Source: Iodidimonas nitroreducens (GTDB lineage Bacteria; Pseudomonadota; Alphaproteobacteria; Sphingomonadales; Rhodothalassiaceae). Taken from it: a stretch of 64,000 bases of DNA. This document shows, one piece after another, positions 1,747 to 23,347 of this stretch. Below the pieces are notes generated by a model, which saw nothing but the letters and a program-made list of their open reading frames with translations, did not search any database and was not told the origin of the DNA. A program made the position numbers and the translations under genes. Numbering within the stretch: the stretch's first letter is position 1; every line of letters begins with the position of its first letter. The DNA lies in the NCBI GenBank assembly GCA_000710935.1, contig BAYV01000001.1, positions 1 to 64,000 of the forward strand. Reading direction: 5' to 3'.

Positions 1747-3138
1747 ATGTCTGTTCGCAATGCCGCTGCCGTCATTCTTGCTGCAGGCAAGGGAACGAGA
1801 ATGAAATCGCGTCGTCACAAGGTTCTGCACCCCATTGGCGGGCGGGCGATGATCGATCATATCTTTGATCGATTGGCGGACATCAGTGTCGCGCGGCAGA
1901 TTCTGGTCGTGGGATCGGATCGCCAGCAGCTTGAAGCCGCGATGGCGGGCCGGAAGGTGGATTTTGCGGTGCAGGAACCCCAATTGGGCACCGGCCATGC
2001 GGTGATGCAGGCCCTGCCCGCCCTTGCTGGCCATCAGGGTCCGGTTCTGGTGCTTTATGGCGATACGCCTTTGATCCGATCTGAAACTTTGGCTTTGATG
2101 CTGGCACAGATCGGGGATCGGAAATCCGCAGGCCCGGGCCTTGTGGTGCTGGGATTTCGCCCCGAAGATCCCGGAGCTTATGGCCGCCTTGTCACCGATG
2201 ATGACGGCAATCTTTTGCGGATTGTGGAATATAAGGATGCCAGCCCTGCCGAACGGGCGATTGGCCTGTGCAATTCAGGGGTGATGGCCTTTGATGGGGC
2301 GCTTTTACCCCGGCTTTTGCAGCCCCTGCGCAATGACAATGCCAAGGGGGAATATTATCTCACTGATACGGTGGCGATTGCCCGGGATCTGGGGGTGAAA
2401 GCGGCGGTGATCGAAGCCCCGGCCGATGATCTTTTGGGCGTGAATGATCGTGCTGATCTGGCCATGGCGGAAGCCGTGTTTCAAAAACGGATGCGCCGGG
2501 CGGCCATGGCGGCGGGGGCCACGCTGATCGCCCCGGATACGGTTTATTTCAGCCATGATACCAAGCTGGGCCGCGATGTGCTGATCGAGCCGCAGGTGAT
2601 TTTCGGCCCCCATGTAGAGATCGAGGATGATGCGATCATCCGCGCTTTTTCCCATATCGAAGGGGCGAAGATCGCCACGAAAGCCGTGGTGGGCCCCTAT
2701 GCCCGCCTGCGCCCGGGGGCCGATATCGGCAAGGGGGTGAAGATTGGCAATTTCGTGGAAATCAAAAATGCCCGGCTCGATGAAGGGGCAAAAGCCAGCC
2801 ATTTAAGCTATATCGGCGATGCCACCATCGGGCCGCGCGTGAATATCGGCGCAGGCACCATTTTTTGCAATTATGATGGTTTCGCCAAATTCCACACCAG
2901 CATCGGAGCCGATAGCTTCATCGGATCAAACAGCGCCCTTGTGGCCCCCTTGCATATTGGCGAAGGGGCGATCATCGGGGCGGGCAGCGTGATCAGCCGC
3001 GCTGTGGATGATGGCGATCTGGCGCTTGCCCGGGCCGAGCAGACCAGCCGCCCCGGCTGGGCGAAAAAATTCCGGGCCCGCAAAAGCCGCCCGAAATCGG
3101 CCCCAAAAATCGATCATGACGATCATAAATCGCGCTGA
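1747..3138 (+). CDS. glmU: Bifunctional GlmU: glucosamine-1-phosphate acetyltransferase / GlcNAc-1-phosphate uridylyltransferase
   Basis: Makes UDP-GlcNAc, the precursor of peptidoglycan and lipid A, in the cytoplasm. The 463-aa length is typical. The N-terminal nucleotidyltransferase domain has LAAGKGTRMKS (residues 11-21), QEPQLGTGHAV (77-87) and the metal-binding YGDTP (104-108). The C-terminal half is a left-handed beta helix of hexapeptide repeats from about residue 260, with the acetyltransferase signature KNARLDEGAKASHLSY and the catalytic His at 352. The C-terminus ends in a basic tail. glmS starts 41 bp downstream, so the two enzymes that feed UDP-GlcNAc are probably cotranscribed. 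Confidence 0.97.
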   Translation: MSVRNAAAVILAAGKGTRMKSRRHKVLHPIGGRAMIDHIFDRLADISVARQILVVGSDRQQLEAAMAGRKVDFAVQEPQLGTGHAVMQALPALAGHQGPVLVLYGDTPLIRSETLALMLAQIGDRKSAGPGLVVLGFRPEDPGAYGRLVTDDDGNLLRIVEYKDASPAERAIGLCNSGVMAFDGALLPRLLQPLRNDNAKGEYYLTDTVAIARDLGVKAAVIEAPADDLLGVNDRADLAMAEAVFQKRMRRAAMAAGATLIAPDTVYFSHDTKLGRDVLIEPQVIFGPHVEIEDDAIIRAFSHIEGAKIATKAVVGPYARLRPGADIGKGVKIGNFVEIKNARLDEGAKASHLSYIGDATIGPRVNIGAGTIFCNYDGFAKFHTSIGADSFIGSNSALVAPLHIGEGAIIGAGSVISRAVDDGDLALARAEQTSRPGWAKKFRARKSRPKSAPKIDHDDHKSR

Positions 3139-6490: not shown

Positions 6491-6524
6491 AAATACAGAC
6501 CTCATTAAAATACAGACCTCATTA
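6491..6524. repeat. Tandem duplication of a 17-bp unit
   Basis: AAATACAGACCTCATTA occurs twice back to back at 6491-6507 and 6508-6524, then a third copy begins (AAAT). It sits 18 bp past the end of the LRAT-domain gene, at the GC-rich to AT-rich transition. It could be replication slippage or a trace of insertion. Confidence 0.9.
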
Positions 6525-6542
6525 AAATGCGTGACGGTAGAG

Positions 6543-6917
6543 TTAGGCTCTAGGCAGAAAGGAAAAGCCTAAAACACAAAGTAGTACAAAAATAAGGCCC
6601 TTGATCTGAGGACTCCTTGGCTCCACGCCGCACACTTCCGTGACAAAATGCTCACAATTTTGCAAAAATAGACGATAGGGGCGGCCAATCCGTTGGCGTG
6701 CCCTTTGAACAATCTCATATGGAGGAAGATTGCCATCAATACCATGCCTTGTAATCGGCAATCCTTCTGAAAATTCTCCTACTGAGCTTTCCACCACCTT
6801 TTCTTGTCGTTTTGAAGCATGAATGACAGTGCCGCGTTCACTGACAATTCCAAAGTGCTGATATCCCGGGAAGAACCAAGCCGAAACGACTTCGCCAACG
6901 GAGTAAGTTGATATCAT
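6543..6917 (-). CDS. LRAT-domain (NlpC/P60-like) protein with C-terminal membrane anchor
   Basis: The 124-aa protein has the LRAT/H-Rev107 pattern. His21 lies in QHFGIV, His33 in VIHAS (12 residues apart, as in H-Rev107 and LRAT) and the catalytic-type Cys88 in NCEHF. This thiol fold, in the NlpC/P60 superfamily, is known for acyl transfer or lipid hydrolysis in eukaryotes; bacterial roles are mostly unknown. Residues 107-121 form one hydrophobic segment at the C-terminus, so the protein is probably tail-anchored with the catalytic domain in the cytosol. The ATG at 6917 has AAGGAA 7 bases upstream. The gene is clearly AT-richer than its neighbours and diverges from an HTH gene 61 bp away. The substrate is unknown. 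Confidence 0.8.
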   Translation of the reverse strand: MISTYSVGEVVSAWFFPGYQHFGIVSERGTVIHASKRQEKVVESSVGEFSEGLPITRHGIDGNLPPYEIVQRARQRIGRPYRLFLQNCEHFVTEVCGVEPRSPQIKGLIFVLLCVLGFSFLPRA

Positions 6918-6978
6918 TCATAAGTTCCTTTATAATCTGAAATATGATAGCAATTCAAAATTATATATATAATTCAAA
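6918..6978. promoter_or_regulatory. AT-rich divergent control region of the LRAT/HTH pair
   Basis: This 61-bp gap is almost all A and T. It holds two direct copies of AATTCAAAAT, at 6952-6961 and 6971-6980, separated by a TATATATA stretch; the second copy overlaps the HTH start codon. TATAAT occurs at 6931-6936 on the plus strand and a similar AT box faces the LRAT gene. Repeated sites next to an HTH gene suggest autoregulation, which is inference. Confidence 0.55.
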
Positions 6979-7359
6979 ATGAATGCAAATGGTTTTTCAC
7001 ACGCTACGACCTTTTCAATGATCATAGCCCAATTGCTGGCTTTAGAATGTCAGAATAAGGGACTGACATTAAAAGATTTTTTTGAAAAAAGCGGGATCAG
7101 CCAGCCGACATGGTCGCGGATCATGCGTGGTCAGTCGAAGATGAGTTTGGAGGATTTAAAAAACGGTTGTGATTCTCTCGAACTGCAAATGTCTATGATT
7201 ATTGACAGGGCAGAGACCATCGCAAAACAGCTGCCGAAGGAAGATGTGAAAATCGTAAATCCCAAGGATATCCAAGCCGATCAGAATAATGGCGATCTCA
7301 CCAAATTCGTTCTTGCATCAGCCGCATTGGCTTTTCTGATCTCCAAGCTGATGAAATGA
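6979..7359 (+). CDS. XRE-like helix-turn-helix protein with C-terminal hydrophobic tail
   Basis: The 126-aa protein has an HTH of the Cro/CI type at about residues 25-68: LTLKDFFEKSGISQ, then PTWSRIMRGQ as the likely recognition helix. A polar linker (about 75-108) leads to a hydrophobic stretch FVLASAALAFLISKL at the extreme C-terminus, which could place the regulator at the membrane. No good ribosome site precedes the ATG at 6979. A second ATG at 7018 (MIIAQLL) would start just before the HTH and is an alternative. It diverges from the LRAT-domain gene, which also ends in a membrane segment; both are AT-rich. Neither domain order nor the pair matches a system I can name. Confidence 0.7.
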   Translation: MNANGFSHATTFSMIIAQLLALECQNKGLTLKDFFEKSGISQPTWSRIMRGQSKMSLEDLKNGCDSLELQMSMIIDRAETIAKQLPKEDVKIVNPKDIQADQNNGDLTKFVLASAALAFLISKLMK

Positions 7360-7450
7360 TGGCATCCGATTGGAGTGATAGGACCACCTTAGCGTTACAG
7401 GACGGATCATAACAGCGTGCATAAGGTACCTTGCTCATGTGCTACCCATC

Positions 7451-7509: not shown

Positions 7510-9162
7510 TCAGCCGCGCTCGAATTTCTTGAATTTCAGGCGATGGGGGGTTGCAGCTTCATCGCCCAGGCGGCGTTTGCGGTCGGCTTCATAGGCTTCG
7601 AAATTGCCCTCGAACCATTCCACATGGCTATCGCCTTCAAAAGCAAGGATATGGGTGGCAAGGCGATCGAGGAAGAAGCGATCATGGCTGATGACCACGG
7701 CGCATCCCGCGAAATTTTCCAGCGCTTCTTCCAAAGCCCGCAGGGTTTCCACATCCAGATCATTGGTCGGCTCATCCAGCAGCAAAACATTGCCGCCCTT
7801 GCGCAGCATTTTGGCCAGATGCACGCGATTGCGCTCCCCGCCCGAAAGCAGGCCAACCTTTTTTTGCTGATCGGCGCCCTTGAAATTGAAGGCCCCCACA
7901 TAGGAACGCGTGGGAATTTCGGTCTTGCCGAAATAAAATATATCATCACCGCCGGAAATTTCCTGCCACACGGTTTGATTGGCATCCAAAGCATCGCGGC
8001 TTTGATCCACATAGCCAAGCTGCACGGTTTCGCCGATGGAAATGGTTCCGGCATCCGGTGTTTCTTCGCCGGTGATCAGCTTGAACAGGGTGGTTTTACC
8101 GGCACCATTGGGGCCGATGATCCCCACAATTCCGCCGGGCGGCAGGGAAAAGCTGAGATCTTCATAAAGCAGGCGATCCCCAAAGGCTTTGGAAACGCCA
8201 TTAAATTCAATGACATTGCTGCCAAGCCGGGTGGGCGGCTGCATCTTGATCTGGGCCGTGCCCGAAAGCTTTTCCTGCTGTTCTTGCAGCATTTCATCAT
8301 AGGCCCTGATGCGCGCCTTCGATTTCGCCTGCCGGGCTTTGGGGCTGGATCTGATCCATTCCAGCTCTTTTGCCAAAGCCTTGTCCTTGGCTTCTTCCTT
8401 GCGCTCTTCCAGCGCCAGCCGCTTTTGCTTGGCTTCCAGCCATTGGGAATAATTGCCCTCGAAAGGAATGCCATGGCCGCGATCGAGTTCAAGCACCCAG
8501 CCCACCACATTATCGAGGAAATAGCGATCATGGGTTACCAGCACCACGGTGCCTTTATATTCCTGCAAGAAGCGTTCGAGCCAGGCCACTGATTCGGCAT
8601 CCAGATGATTGGTCGGCTCATCCAGCATCAAAAGATCGGGCTTTTCCAGCAACAGGCGGCACAGGGCCACCCGCCGCCGTTCGCCACCGGAAAGGGTGGC
8701 GATATCGGCATCGCCCGGCGGGCAGCGCAGGGCATCCATGGCAATCTCGACCTGATTATCGAGTTCCCACAGATTGCCGGCATCGATTTCATCCTGCAGG
8801 CGGGCCATTTCATCGGCCACATCATCGGAATAATCGGCCAAAATCTCGTTATAGCGATCAAGAATGGCCTGTTGCGCCGCCACCCCATCACGCACATTGC
8901 CCAAAACATCCTTGGCCGGATCAAGCTGAGGTTCCTGGCTCAGATAGCCGGTGCGAATCCCCTCGGCGGCCCAGGCTTCGCCGGTAAAATCCTTGTCGAT
9001 GCCCGACATGATCCGCATCAGGGTCGATTTCCCCGAGCCATTGACGCCGATCACCGCGATTTTCACGCCGGGAAGGAAATTGAGATGAATATCCTTCAGC
9101 ACATGGCGGCCACCGGGATATTTCTTGTTGAGTCCTTGCATGTGGAAAACATACTGAACCAT
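7510..9162 (-). CDS. ettA: Energy-dependent translational throttle protein EttA (ABC-F)
   Basis: ABC-F proteins bind the ribosomal E site; EttA gates translation by the ATP/ADP ratio. The 550-aa product has two soluble ABC cassettes: Walker [10 protein letters not shown] and GPNGAGKTT, signatures [13 protein letters not shown] and [13 protein letters not shown], Walker [13 protein letters not shown] and [12 protein letters not shown] charged P-site tether linker lies between the cassettes. There are no membrane segments. The start at 9162 is chosen because [18 protein letters not shown] matches the EttA N-terminus; an upstream start would add 23 unrelated residues. A terminator follows the gene. 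Confidence 0.93.
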
Positions 9163-22654: not shown

Positions 22655-23347
22655 TCACTGTTTTACGATCGAAGCGCGGCAGGAAATACCGCCTTCAAGG
22701 CACGTTTCCGGCTGCACCGGCGAATAAATGCCATAAGCCTTGGGCAAGGGGCGCGTGCCATCCGGCTCGAAGCCGAAATTCACATAAATCTGCGCCAGAC
22801 TCATGCCCAGAAATCCGCCGCCCATCATCACCGCCAGATCGGCGCGCTCCACCAGGCTTTGCCGGATATCGGGCTGATAAGCCTTATCCCCGGTGATTGT
22901 CAGATGCGCGGCAAAGGCGCTATTGGCGGTCCAGCCGGTTTCATGATCCAAAGATAATCCCAAAAAGCCCAGCAGATCGCCCTTCTTACCATTGGCCAAA
23001 GGCACCAGAGCCCAATCGGCAGGAGCCTGTGTCGCTTCGCTTTCCGGCGCAGTGCGGCGCAGGGTGATGGTAATTTGCAAAGGCGGAAACACCAGCGGCC
23101 ATTGGGCTTCCGGTAAAGGCTCCAGCGTCCCTTTTAGATCGGTTTCGGGCACAGATGCACTTTGCGCCAAAGCCAAAGATGCCATGAAACAGGCCAAGAG
23201 GATCGAACCCCAGCATAAGGGCGAGGCCGCCCCAAACGGCCCGAAGCGATCCTGTTTCAACCACATCACCTGCGTTAAACCTGTCAAAAGAGCCTCCACC
23301 CTAAGCCGGGGCAGCCATATGATTACGGCCTGCCGTCTTGTCGCCAC
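22655..23347 (-). CDS. Unrecognised exported protein inside the ED operon
   Basis: I do not recognise this 230-aa protein. It lies between pgl (13 bp) and edd (12 bp) on the same strand, so it is very likely cotranscribed with the ED genes. From the GTG at 23347 it has a basic start and a hydrophobic stretch WGSILLACFMASLALAQSA at about residues 46-64. From an ATG at 23266 (203 aa) that stretch becomes an ordinary signal peptide cleaved after ALAQ. The rest is soluble, with LQITITLRRTAP, a Gly/Met patch MMGGGFLGMS and two late Cys (ETCLEGGISCR) that could form a disulfide. Other ED operons often carry a glucokinase gene here instead. Confidence 0.65.
   Translation of the reverse strand: MATRRQAVIIWLPRLRVEALLTGLTQVMWLKQDRFGPFGAASPLCWGSILLACFMASLALAQSASVPETDLKGTLEPLPEAQWPLVFPPLQITITLRRTAPESEATQAPADWALVPLANGKKGDLLGFLGLSLDHETGWTANSAFAAHLTITGDKAYQPDIRQSLVERADLAVMMGGGFLGMSLAQIYVNFGFEPDGTRPLPKAYGIYSPVQPETCLEGGISCRASIVKQ

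Follow-up and report, generated by a model that had tools for sequence, protein, structure and literature searches.

A divergent LRAT/PLAAT-like gene and membrane-tailed HTH regulator gene as a conserved bacterial module with a probable role in defence

In the window, that is, the whole stretch of 64,000 nucleotides that was analysed, a short gene for an LRAT/PLAAT-like protein faces a short gene for an XRE-type HTH regulator, and the same arrangement recurs in alpha-, beta- and gammaproteobacteria and in Planctomycetota. We regard the LRAT-HTH pair as almost certainly a genuine conserved module. Moreover, because a close relative of the HTH regulator adjoins viperin, a known antiviral protein, the gene neighbourhoods suggest that we are probably dealing with a bacterial defence unit that has not been described before.

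The locus and its two proteins

The features of the locus, in window coordinates, are the following.

6530-7365, no strand: AT-rich islet with the LRAT-HTH pair, flanked by a UDP-GlcNAc 2-epimerase-like gene on the left and an EttA-like ABC-F gene on the right
6543-6917, minus strand: LRAT/PLAAT-like protein gene, 124 aa (PF04970, AlphaFold2 model, human PLAAT/HRASLS matches)
6908-6936, plus strand: promoter-like site TTGATA-17-TATAAT of the HTH gene, 11 of 12 positions; consensus match only
6918-6978, no strand: shared intergenic promoter region, 61 bp, 18% GC
6952-6980, no strand: two AATTCAAAAT boxes, putative operator, starting at 6952 and 6971, 19 bp apart
6960-6989, minus strand: promoter-like site TTTGCA-18-TATAAT of the LRAT gene, 10 of 12 positions; consensus match only
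6979-7359, plus strand: XRE-type HTH regulator gene, 126 aa (HTH_31, HTH_26, model, profile of LRAT-linked homologues)

The coordinates, strands and lengths given for the two genes in the first-pass annotation were recovered on re-check, and so was their divergent orientation, with the LRAT gene on the minus strand, the HTH gene on the plus strand and 61 bp between them. The contrast with GC-rich neighbours is also present, since the islet has 42.7% GC against 58.7% and 56.7% in its flanks; it overlaps the lowest-GC 830-bp stretch of the window (42.3%, at 6501). On its left lies the UDP-GlcNAc 2-epimerase-like gene (324 bits) and on its right an ABC-F ATPase gene that we take to be EttA-like. 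Close to the left edge of the islet, immediately past the stop codon of the LRAT gene, a 17-bp unit is perfectly duplicated in tandem (6491-6524), which is possibly an insertion scar. No RNA elements or tRNA were found at the site of the pair; elsewhere in the window, ARAGORN called a tRNA-Pro (23189-23272) without Rfam support at the gathering threshold, a call that is possibly false.

The pair is missing from the two same-genus genomes, neither of which carries the LRAT gene or the tailed HTH gene, and this answers the question of its presence in close relatives. Both genomes keep the EttA-like gene at 91-92% identity, with a downstream neighbour that differs between them and from that of the window, and both have an epimerase homologue (61-62%) on the same contig, about 38 kb (G001) and 77 kb (G002) from the EttA-like gene. 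As the flanking genes are not neighbours there, the pair is located at a synteny breakpoint, and by gene order this would fit a variable site. A clean empty site was not found in these two genomes, the islet-flanking genes not being adjacent.

Within the intergenic region the two promoter-like sites stand back-to-back, and the AATTCAAAAT boxes, which correspond to the shared direct repeat noticed at first pass, overlap the promoter-like site of the LRAT gene. The core of the repeat, ATTCAAAAT, occurs four times in the window against 1.7 expected, and 9 of 100 shuffles reach four copies, so that the repeat alone is weak evidence. Inspected by eye, the G022 intergenic region contains ATTCAAAA-like letters once, in reverse, and that of G299 an inverted pair, TCAAAATT/AATTTGA. 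We keep the boxes as a lead only, as a putative operator.

The LRAT identity of the 124-aa protein is real, PF04970 scoring 49.5 bits against a curated Pfam cut-off of 24.3. The domain is a permuted NlpC/P60 domain, and it is followed at the C-terminus by a hydrophobic anchor at about residues 105-121 (best Kyte-Doolittle 17-mer 2.46, hydropathy only). All three residues of the proposed triad, His21, His33 and Cys88, are present, with Cys88 inside an NCEHFV motif; HRASLS enzymes have the same motif and His-His-Cys set (PMC4624172, excerpt). The AlphaFold2 model, built on a six-sequence alignment (pLDDT 81.2, pTM 0.70), matched human PLAAT3, HRASLS2, H-REV107 and PLAAT4 in Foldseek, with E 2.5e-6 at best. 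It superposed on 4dot, 7zom, 4dpz, 4fa0, 7c3z and 7zot_A over 95-98 residues at 2.1-2.6 A (Z 13.1-13.8), and lower-ranked matches included a picornavirus 2A protein (Z 9.7) and E. coli YiiX (Z 8.7). The predicted fold is that of the PLAAT/HRASLS catalytic domain. The objection that the LRAT gene might be a fragment of a larger gene fails, homologues being similar in length.

All 12 LRAT proteins of the module have the first His and the Cys, and at the third position six have His and the other six Ser (G353 read by eye). Hydrophobic tails reach at least 1.42 in 10 of 11 module LRATs, by hydropathy only, the eleventh (G034) ending at a contig end; the tail of the G353 protein reaches 2.50. In HRASLS1 the third active-site residue is Asn (PMC4624172, excerpt), and the third polar residue in LRAT may be dispensable (PMC3142127, excerpt). 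Given that the NCEHFV/His-His-Cys set is kept, that the His and the Cys never vary in the module and that the third residue is perhaps dispensable, the window LRAT is likely, as judged from its motifs and predicted fold, to be a catalytically competent lipid enzyme. In HRASLS3, phospholipase activity requires the C-terminal membrane segment (PMC4624172, excerpt). NCBIfam, PHROGs and PADLOC gave no convincing match for the LRAT protein, and none of the PADLOC defence families matched it at E<=1, in keeping with the initial impression that the pair belongs to no recognised named system.

The regulator passes the curated cut-offs for an XRE-like HTH, narrowly for HTH_31 (27.5 bits, cut-off 27) and with 24.5 bits against 22 for HTH_26; NCBIfam, PHROGs and PADLOC returned weak or generic HTH matches only. 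It also ends in a single hydrophobic segment, at about residues 109-125 (best Kyte-Doolittle 17-mer 1.72), so that the one C-terminal segment noted for each protein is present in both, as measured by Kyte-Doolittle 17-mer hydropathy only. The C-terminus is hydrophobic in all 12 LRAT-linked HTHs, with 17-mer hydropathies of 1.72-3.03, and its last residue is K in 11 of them; a profile of these 12, the window's included, covers the window HTH together with its tail. The structures most like its model (pLDDT 81.2 overall, tail about 59, low confidence) are those of XRE proteins, among them ClgR, DdrO, C.BclI and SinR; the similarity is mostly in the HTH part and in no case at E<=0.001. C-proteins and the N-terminal domain of CapH are among the matches in the PDB.

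Linkage of the two genes

We then asked how regularly the two genes occur together. With the window LRAT as query (E<=1e-3), 8 of 196 genomes matched, the window's own included, and in all seven others (G022, G029, G031, G034, G062, G098 and G086) a tailed HTH stood beside the LRAT in divergent orientation, a linkage whose conservation the first-pass annotation had proposed to test. A contig end cuts the LRAT in G034, and the G086 remnant (L161, about 8008-8376) retains the 3' end of each gene and has lost their 5' parts together with the shared promoter. The profile of the 12 LRAT-linked HTHs (E<=1e-13) picked out these eight of the 196 genomes, and no others, as carriers of a tailed HTH. This recall is partly circular, because the profile contains the window HTH and six of the seven neighbour HTHs, but the silence in the remaining 188 genomes is not. 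An independent search with the single window HTH sequence matched five non-own genomes, four of which carry the LRAT (p=3e-6); in the fifth, G097, the match covers the HTH core only.

Further pairs were found in G373, G353 and G481, on a Polaromonas plasmid and a Vibrio anguillarum plasmid, and on a Planctomycetota contig, which brings the divergent pairs to 14. Two of these have damaged genes, namely G086 and G481, where the tailed HTH is intact and the LRAT is broken in two frames. The start codons of the two genes lie 29-131 bp apart in the 12 loci measured, with starts chosen by us. In G353 (L162, 7886-8714) the LRAT has 134 aa, scores 89.9 bits and starts 49 bp from the HTH start. Since neither protein of this genome is in any profile, and the HTH was found first by profile and the LRAT only later, it is an independent case of linkage. 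At the same locus the LRAT frame continues without a stop, in antisense, across most of the HTH gene, and this masks the LRAT in simple longest-ORF listings.

A control set pointed in the same direction. It comprised 84 loci that scans with the HTH alignment had brought in, 80 kept of 92 confirmed in a species-wide search and four viral ones. Five loci contained a full-length tailed HTH (137-165 bits), each with an LRAT beside it; all five are in the scoring profile and four were already known, the Planctomycetota locus being new. None of the other 79 XRE loci had an LRAT in the flanks that were fetched, and their scores did not exceed 54 bits, the matches covering the HTH core in those listed. 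The mirror-tree correlation between LRAT and HTH fell from r 0.54 to 0.08 (p 0.33) once three near copies were collapsed.

The linkage is not strict over the wider families. The expectation that neither gene would occur alone stood for the close LRATs of the 196 genomes, which always come with the tailed HTH; however, the HTH family also occurs without an LRAT, and more distant LRATs occur without the HTH. The tailed HTH was missing at 16 fetched loci with a more distant LRAT, a phage record included. The window LRAT matched 15 plasmid records, and among the eight examined one (Polaromonas) had the tailed HTH and seven did not, including the unannotated record H2, which was checked by script. 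From nine other LRAT records (Vibrio query excluded), H28, H30 and H26 (the same record as H6) were examined, and none of the three had it. Another LRAT search matched five non-own genomes, in which the tailed HTH accompanied the LRAT of G481 and was absent for those of G376, G676 and G593 and for the three of G706. On the module LRAT profile the HTH-less loci score 50-95 bits and the complete module LRATs 90-157 bits, so that the two groups touch.

Two of these surroundings deserve description. At L052 (1447-2593) genes for the LRAT, a small HTH and a presumably DUF2975-like membrane protein apparently form an operon, an LRAT/HTH arrangement of another kind that has no tailed HTH. On an Aeromonas media plasmid (L152, 2486-3541) an LRAT without the tailed HTH lies beside DUF2787, RadC and YeeU genes.

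A pattern scan for close homologues with a single LRAT produced 55 pattern matches and no confirmed case. Viral contigs contained no LRAT relatives and four XRE loci, none with a tailed HTH or LRAT. In phage records the LRAT query matched twice, in contigs filed as one Acinetobacter phage; in the one examined, the neighbourhood looks chromosomal and has no tailed HTH. Phage searches with the window HTH and the G299 HTH gave no match, nor did E. coli genomes with the DNA of the Vibrio pair, and plasmid XRE matches in Nitrosococcus, Pseudomonas, Tsukamurella and Acinetobacter had no annotated LRAT in the stretches read.

Partners of the tailed regulator and genomic context

Searches with the tailed-HTH profile covered 289 genomes class-wide and 398 phylum-wide, in overlapping samples. 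Eight non-own members were matched into the tail (G373, G353, G299, G227, G268, G481, G484 and G631, the tail of G227 coming from a separate comparison), and three of them, G373, G353 and G481, have an LRAT neighbour. Two others, G299 and G268, have a radical SAM neighbour that NCBIfam identifies as viperin (337 and 290 bits against a cut-off of 180) and PADLOC as pVip; in G299 it stands divergent beside the tailed HTH. The chance of two viperin neighbours among eight is p ~5e-10, or 5e-6 if viperin were enriched 100-fold, both figures being rough and assuming 3,700 genes per genome. In a tree of 18 HTHs, G299 groups with the window and G022 with support 100/98, in a bootstrap that was not fully settled and with most other forks weak. 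The closest kin of the window HTH therefore faces an LRAT in G022 and viperin in G299. The HTH of G268 is a more distant and less secure member, at 63 bits against at most 54 for the ordinary control XREs. The window differs from these pVip loci in carrying an LRAT and no viperin (NF038283 at E<=1e-30 had no match in the window's own genome), and a separate pVip search, positive in 3 of 398 genomes, found the tailed HTH within about 1.5 kb of none of these three pVips.

The remaining members have other partners. In G227 (L165, 6606-11469) the divergent gene matches dynamin weakly (E 0.0015 for a part of the gene, no match for the gene as a whole), a convergent gene matches Dynamin_N (E 7e-13), and Hsp70-like ORFs were seen by eye in the cluster. 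In G631 (L187, 1486-3386) the tailed HTH is divergent from a MoxR AAA gene (184 bits to PF20030, the MoxR of MoxR-vWA-beta-propeller ternary systems), and in G484 it has no divergent partner gene. The tailed HTH family is thus not confined to LRAT partners: viperin, a MoxR AAA gene or a weakly dynamin-like gene can take the opposite place, and one member has no partner there. On an Aeromonas veronii plasmid (L063) an HTH and a Gly/Ala-rich hydrophobic protein face each other in divergent orientation (1852-2397, minus strand, and 2566-3051, plus strand). This HTH has a hydrophobic C-terminal region and scores 59.5 bits to the tailed-HTH profile with the tail unmatched; its partner, which has no Pfam match, is perhaps another effector.

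That kin of the regulator faces viperin strengthens a conflict role, and on this association we lean, with some reserve, towards conflict or defence as the role of the pair. A broader reading would make the membrane-tethered XRE family an interchangeable control head for antiviral effectors, carried in small mobile islets and serving PLAAT-like proteins, viperin and perhaps dynamin-like GTPases and MoxR ATPases; we consider this generalization doubtful.

The first-pass annotation had asked about variable sites and defence islands, and copies of the pair indeed occur on plasmids and near conjugation and Tn7-like genes, three of them near restriction genes. In G022 a gene for a VirD4-type coupling protein adjoins the pair, MvaI/BcnI restriction enzyme, Vsr and C5 methylase genes are 2-5 kb away, and the gene of a SIR2 defence protein (576 bits) is about 8.5 kb off. 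On the Vibrio plasmid an Mrr-type enzyme gene directly follows the HTH, then type I restriction-modification genes, and in the Planctomycetota pair an Mrr gene lies about 0.5 kb downstream of the HTH. The Kordiimonas pair has TniB and TniQ/TnsD genes at 1.2-4.3 kb, the Polaromonas pair an IS3 transposase and a GIY-YIG/helicase pair nearby, and the G353 pair a DUF2779 gene and a ResIII-type helicase gene. No restriction-modification genes were seen by eye in the stretches read around the window, G029, G062, G098 and G373 pairs. These defence-gene neighbours are raw counts, and for most copies the stretch read shows no such gene. The copies also differ in AT-rich contrast, which is marked in the window, G098, G373, Polaromonas and G299 but lacking, for example, in G031, Planctomycetota and G353.

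The mobile settings bear on an alternative in which the HTH would serve as antitoxin and repressor of an LRAT acting as membrane toxin, and the pair would stabilize plasmids and islands, with phage defence at most a by-product. Such an addiction module would account for the copies on plasmids, adjoining a conjugation gene or near Tn7-like genes, and a tolerated loss of the toxin would fit the solitary HTH of G484 and the intact HTH beside the broken LRAT of G481. However, the genes are divergent and not in the usual co-transcribed antitoxin-toxin order, and the copy in the window lies on a chromosome, where no mobile genes were seen next to it. Moreover, viperin, an antiviral enzyme and to our knowledge not an addiction toxin, faces a regulator of the same subclade as the window HTH. 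We therefore hold addiction to be unlikely, although it is the strongest of the three alternatives that we weighed.

The restriction genes beside some copies, Mrr and type I, would suit a regulatory switch in which an LRAT-fold cysteine protease or acyl-modifier acts on the HTH, releases it from the membrane or from DNA and thereby switches neighbouring defence genes. CapH/CapP and ImmR/ImmA are pairs of this type. The weak capH matches of four other HTH-family members (PADLOC, E 1e-5 to 2e-3) and the C-protein and CapH N-terminal matches in the PDB are in its favour, as is the presence of peptidases and amidases in the NlpC/P60 superfamily (PMC3142127, excerpt). Nevertheless, the predicted LRAT model fits PLAAT lipid enzymes far better than peptidases, an obvious third gene to control is missing at the window pair, and the window HTH has no match to PADLOC capH at E<=1, which makes a switch of this kind quite improbable.

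The distribution of the pair argues against a host envelope-stress or lipid-remodelling function, in which the tailed HTH would sense the membrane state and maintain homeostasis by tuning a phospholipid acyltransferase. Both proteins are predicted to be in the membrane, and PLAAT/HRASLS enzymes do remodel phospholipids (PMC4624172, excerpt). A homeostatic pair should hardly be so patchy (8 of 196 genomes, and missing from both same-genus genomes), and the wide taxon spread, the mobile and restriction contexts and the AT-rich composition are unlike housekeeping genes. We rate this explanation as very improbable.

Proposed function and relation to known systems

Against these alternatives we set the reading that the two genes form a mobile conflict module, most likely directed against phages, whose PLAAT-like lipid enzyme is kept in check by a tail-anchored repressor; we give this reading an even chance. 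The effector would be a cysteine phospholipase/acyltransferase of PLAAT-like type, anchored by its tail and with its catalytic face at the inner leaflet of the cytoplasmic membrane. The tail-anchored XRE repressor would bind the short shared promoter and keep the effector low, and contact between the two membrane tails might also hold it inactive. Infection would then disturb the membrane or titrate the regulator, and the freed effector would deacylate or remodel phospholipids, so that the cell would be damaged or phage steps at the membrane blocked. Repression, membrane insertion, enzymatic activity, trigger and phage target are all inferred here, and this specific sequence of events, in which the repressor holds the LRAT low, infection releases it and phospholipids are deacylated or transacylated, is a tentative proposal that we judge somewhat less probable than the module reading itself.

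The effector half of the pair has well-known relatives. Human PLAAT3/H-REV107 and PLAAT4/RARRES3 share the permuted NlpC/P60 fold and the His-His-Cys set with NCEHFV, and human HRASLS1-4 likewise have a single C-terminal membrane anchor (PMC4624172, excerpt); PLAAT4 is interferon-induced and restricts some viruses (PMC10102619, excerpt). Unlike the human proteins, the window LRAT is bacterial, shorter at 124 aa and paired with a regulator, and the third active-site residue of its group varies; its activity is predicted. Among bacterial proteins, Tox-Act1 is a permuted NlpC/P60 effector of a type VI secretion system, a phospholipase that cleaves PG and PE. It resembles the window protein as a bacterial member of this fold that acts on membrane lipids in conflict, and differs from it in being secreted, accompanied by an immunity protein and unpaired with a regulator, and in forming its own clade in the tree of that paper (PMC12994826, excerpt).

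The regulator half recalls several classes of small HTH proteins. XRE antitoxins (HigA) and C-proteins combine a small XRE HTH with a neighbouring gene for a potentially harmful enzyme and a short promoter region, and C.BclI and CapH are matched in fold by the window HTH. Unlike XRE antitoxins and C-proteins, the window HTH has a hydrophobic tail, is divergent and has a lipid-enzyme fold as its partner, and the pair is not the co-directional operon of type II toxin-antitoxin systems. CapH/CapP pairs are defined by an HTH that matches CapH and a metalloprotease partner; the window HTH has no capH match and its partner is an LRAT.

Among the matches listed for the open-licence PMC literature, to which our search was confined, an LRAT/HTH pair is not described. 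The nearest mention is a table row in which a gene of the LRAT family belongs to an association cluster of Vibrio together with an integrase, DUF2787 genes and a defence-hit gene (PMC12409351, excerpt), and the available excerpt of PMC9519451 contains nothing on such a pair. LRAT proteins, XRE regulators and pVips are thus known kinds; their combination via a membrane-tailed regulator is, as far as this literature goes, apparently new.

If our proposal is correct, a lipid-attacking PLAAT-type effector and a class of membrane-tethered regulators would be added to bacterial immunity, and the tailed HTH would provide a sequence handle for finding further effectors. Proteins annotated only as 'lecithin retinol acyltransferase family protein' would gain a functional hypothesis, and bacterial parallels of animal PLAAT antiviral activity would become testable, as for viperin. 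Should the doubtful control-head reading also be true, bacteria would have counterparts of two classes of animal interferon effectors, viperin and PLAAT4, governed by a single regulator family, and the antiviral lipid enzymes of PLAAT type would find a parallel in bacterial immunity.
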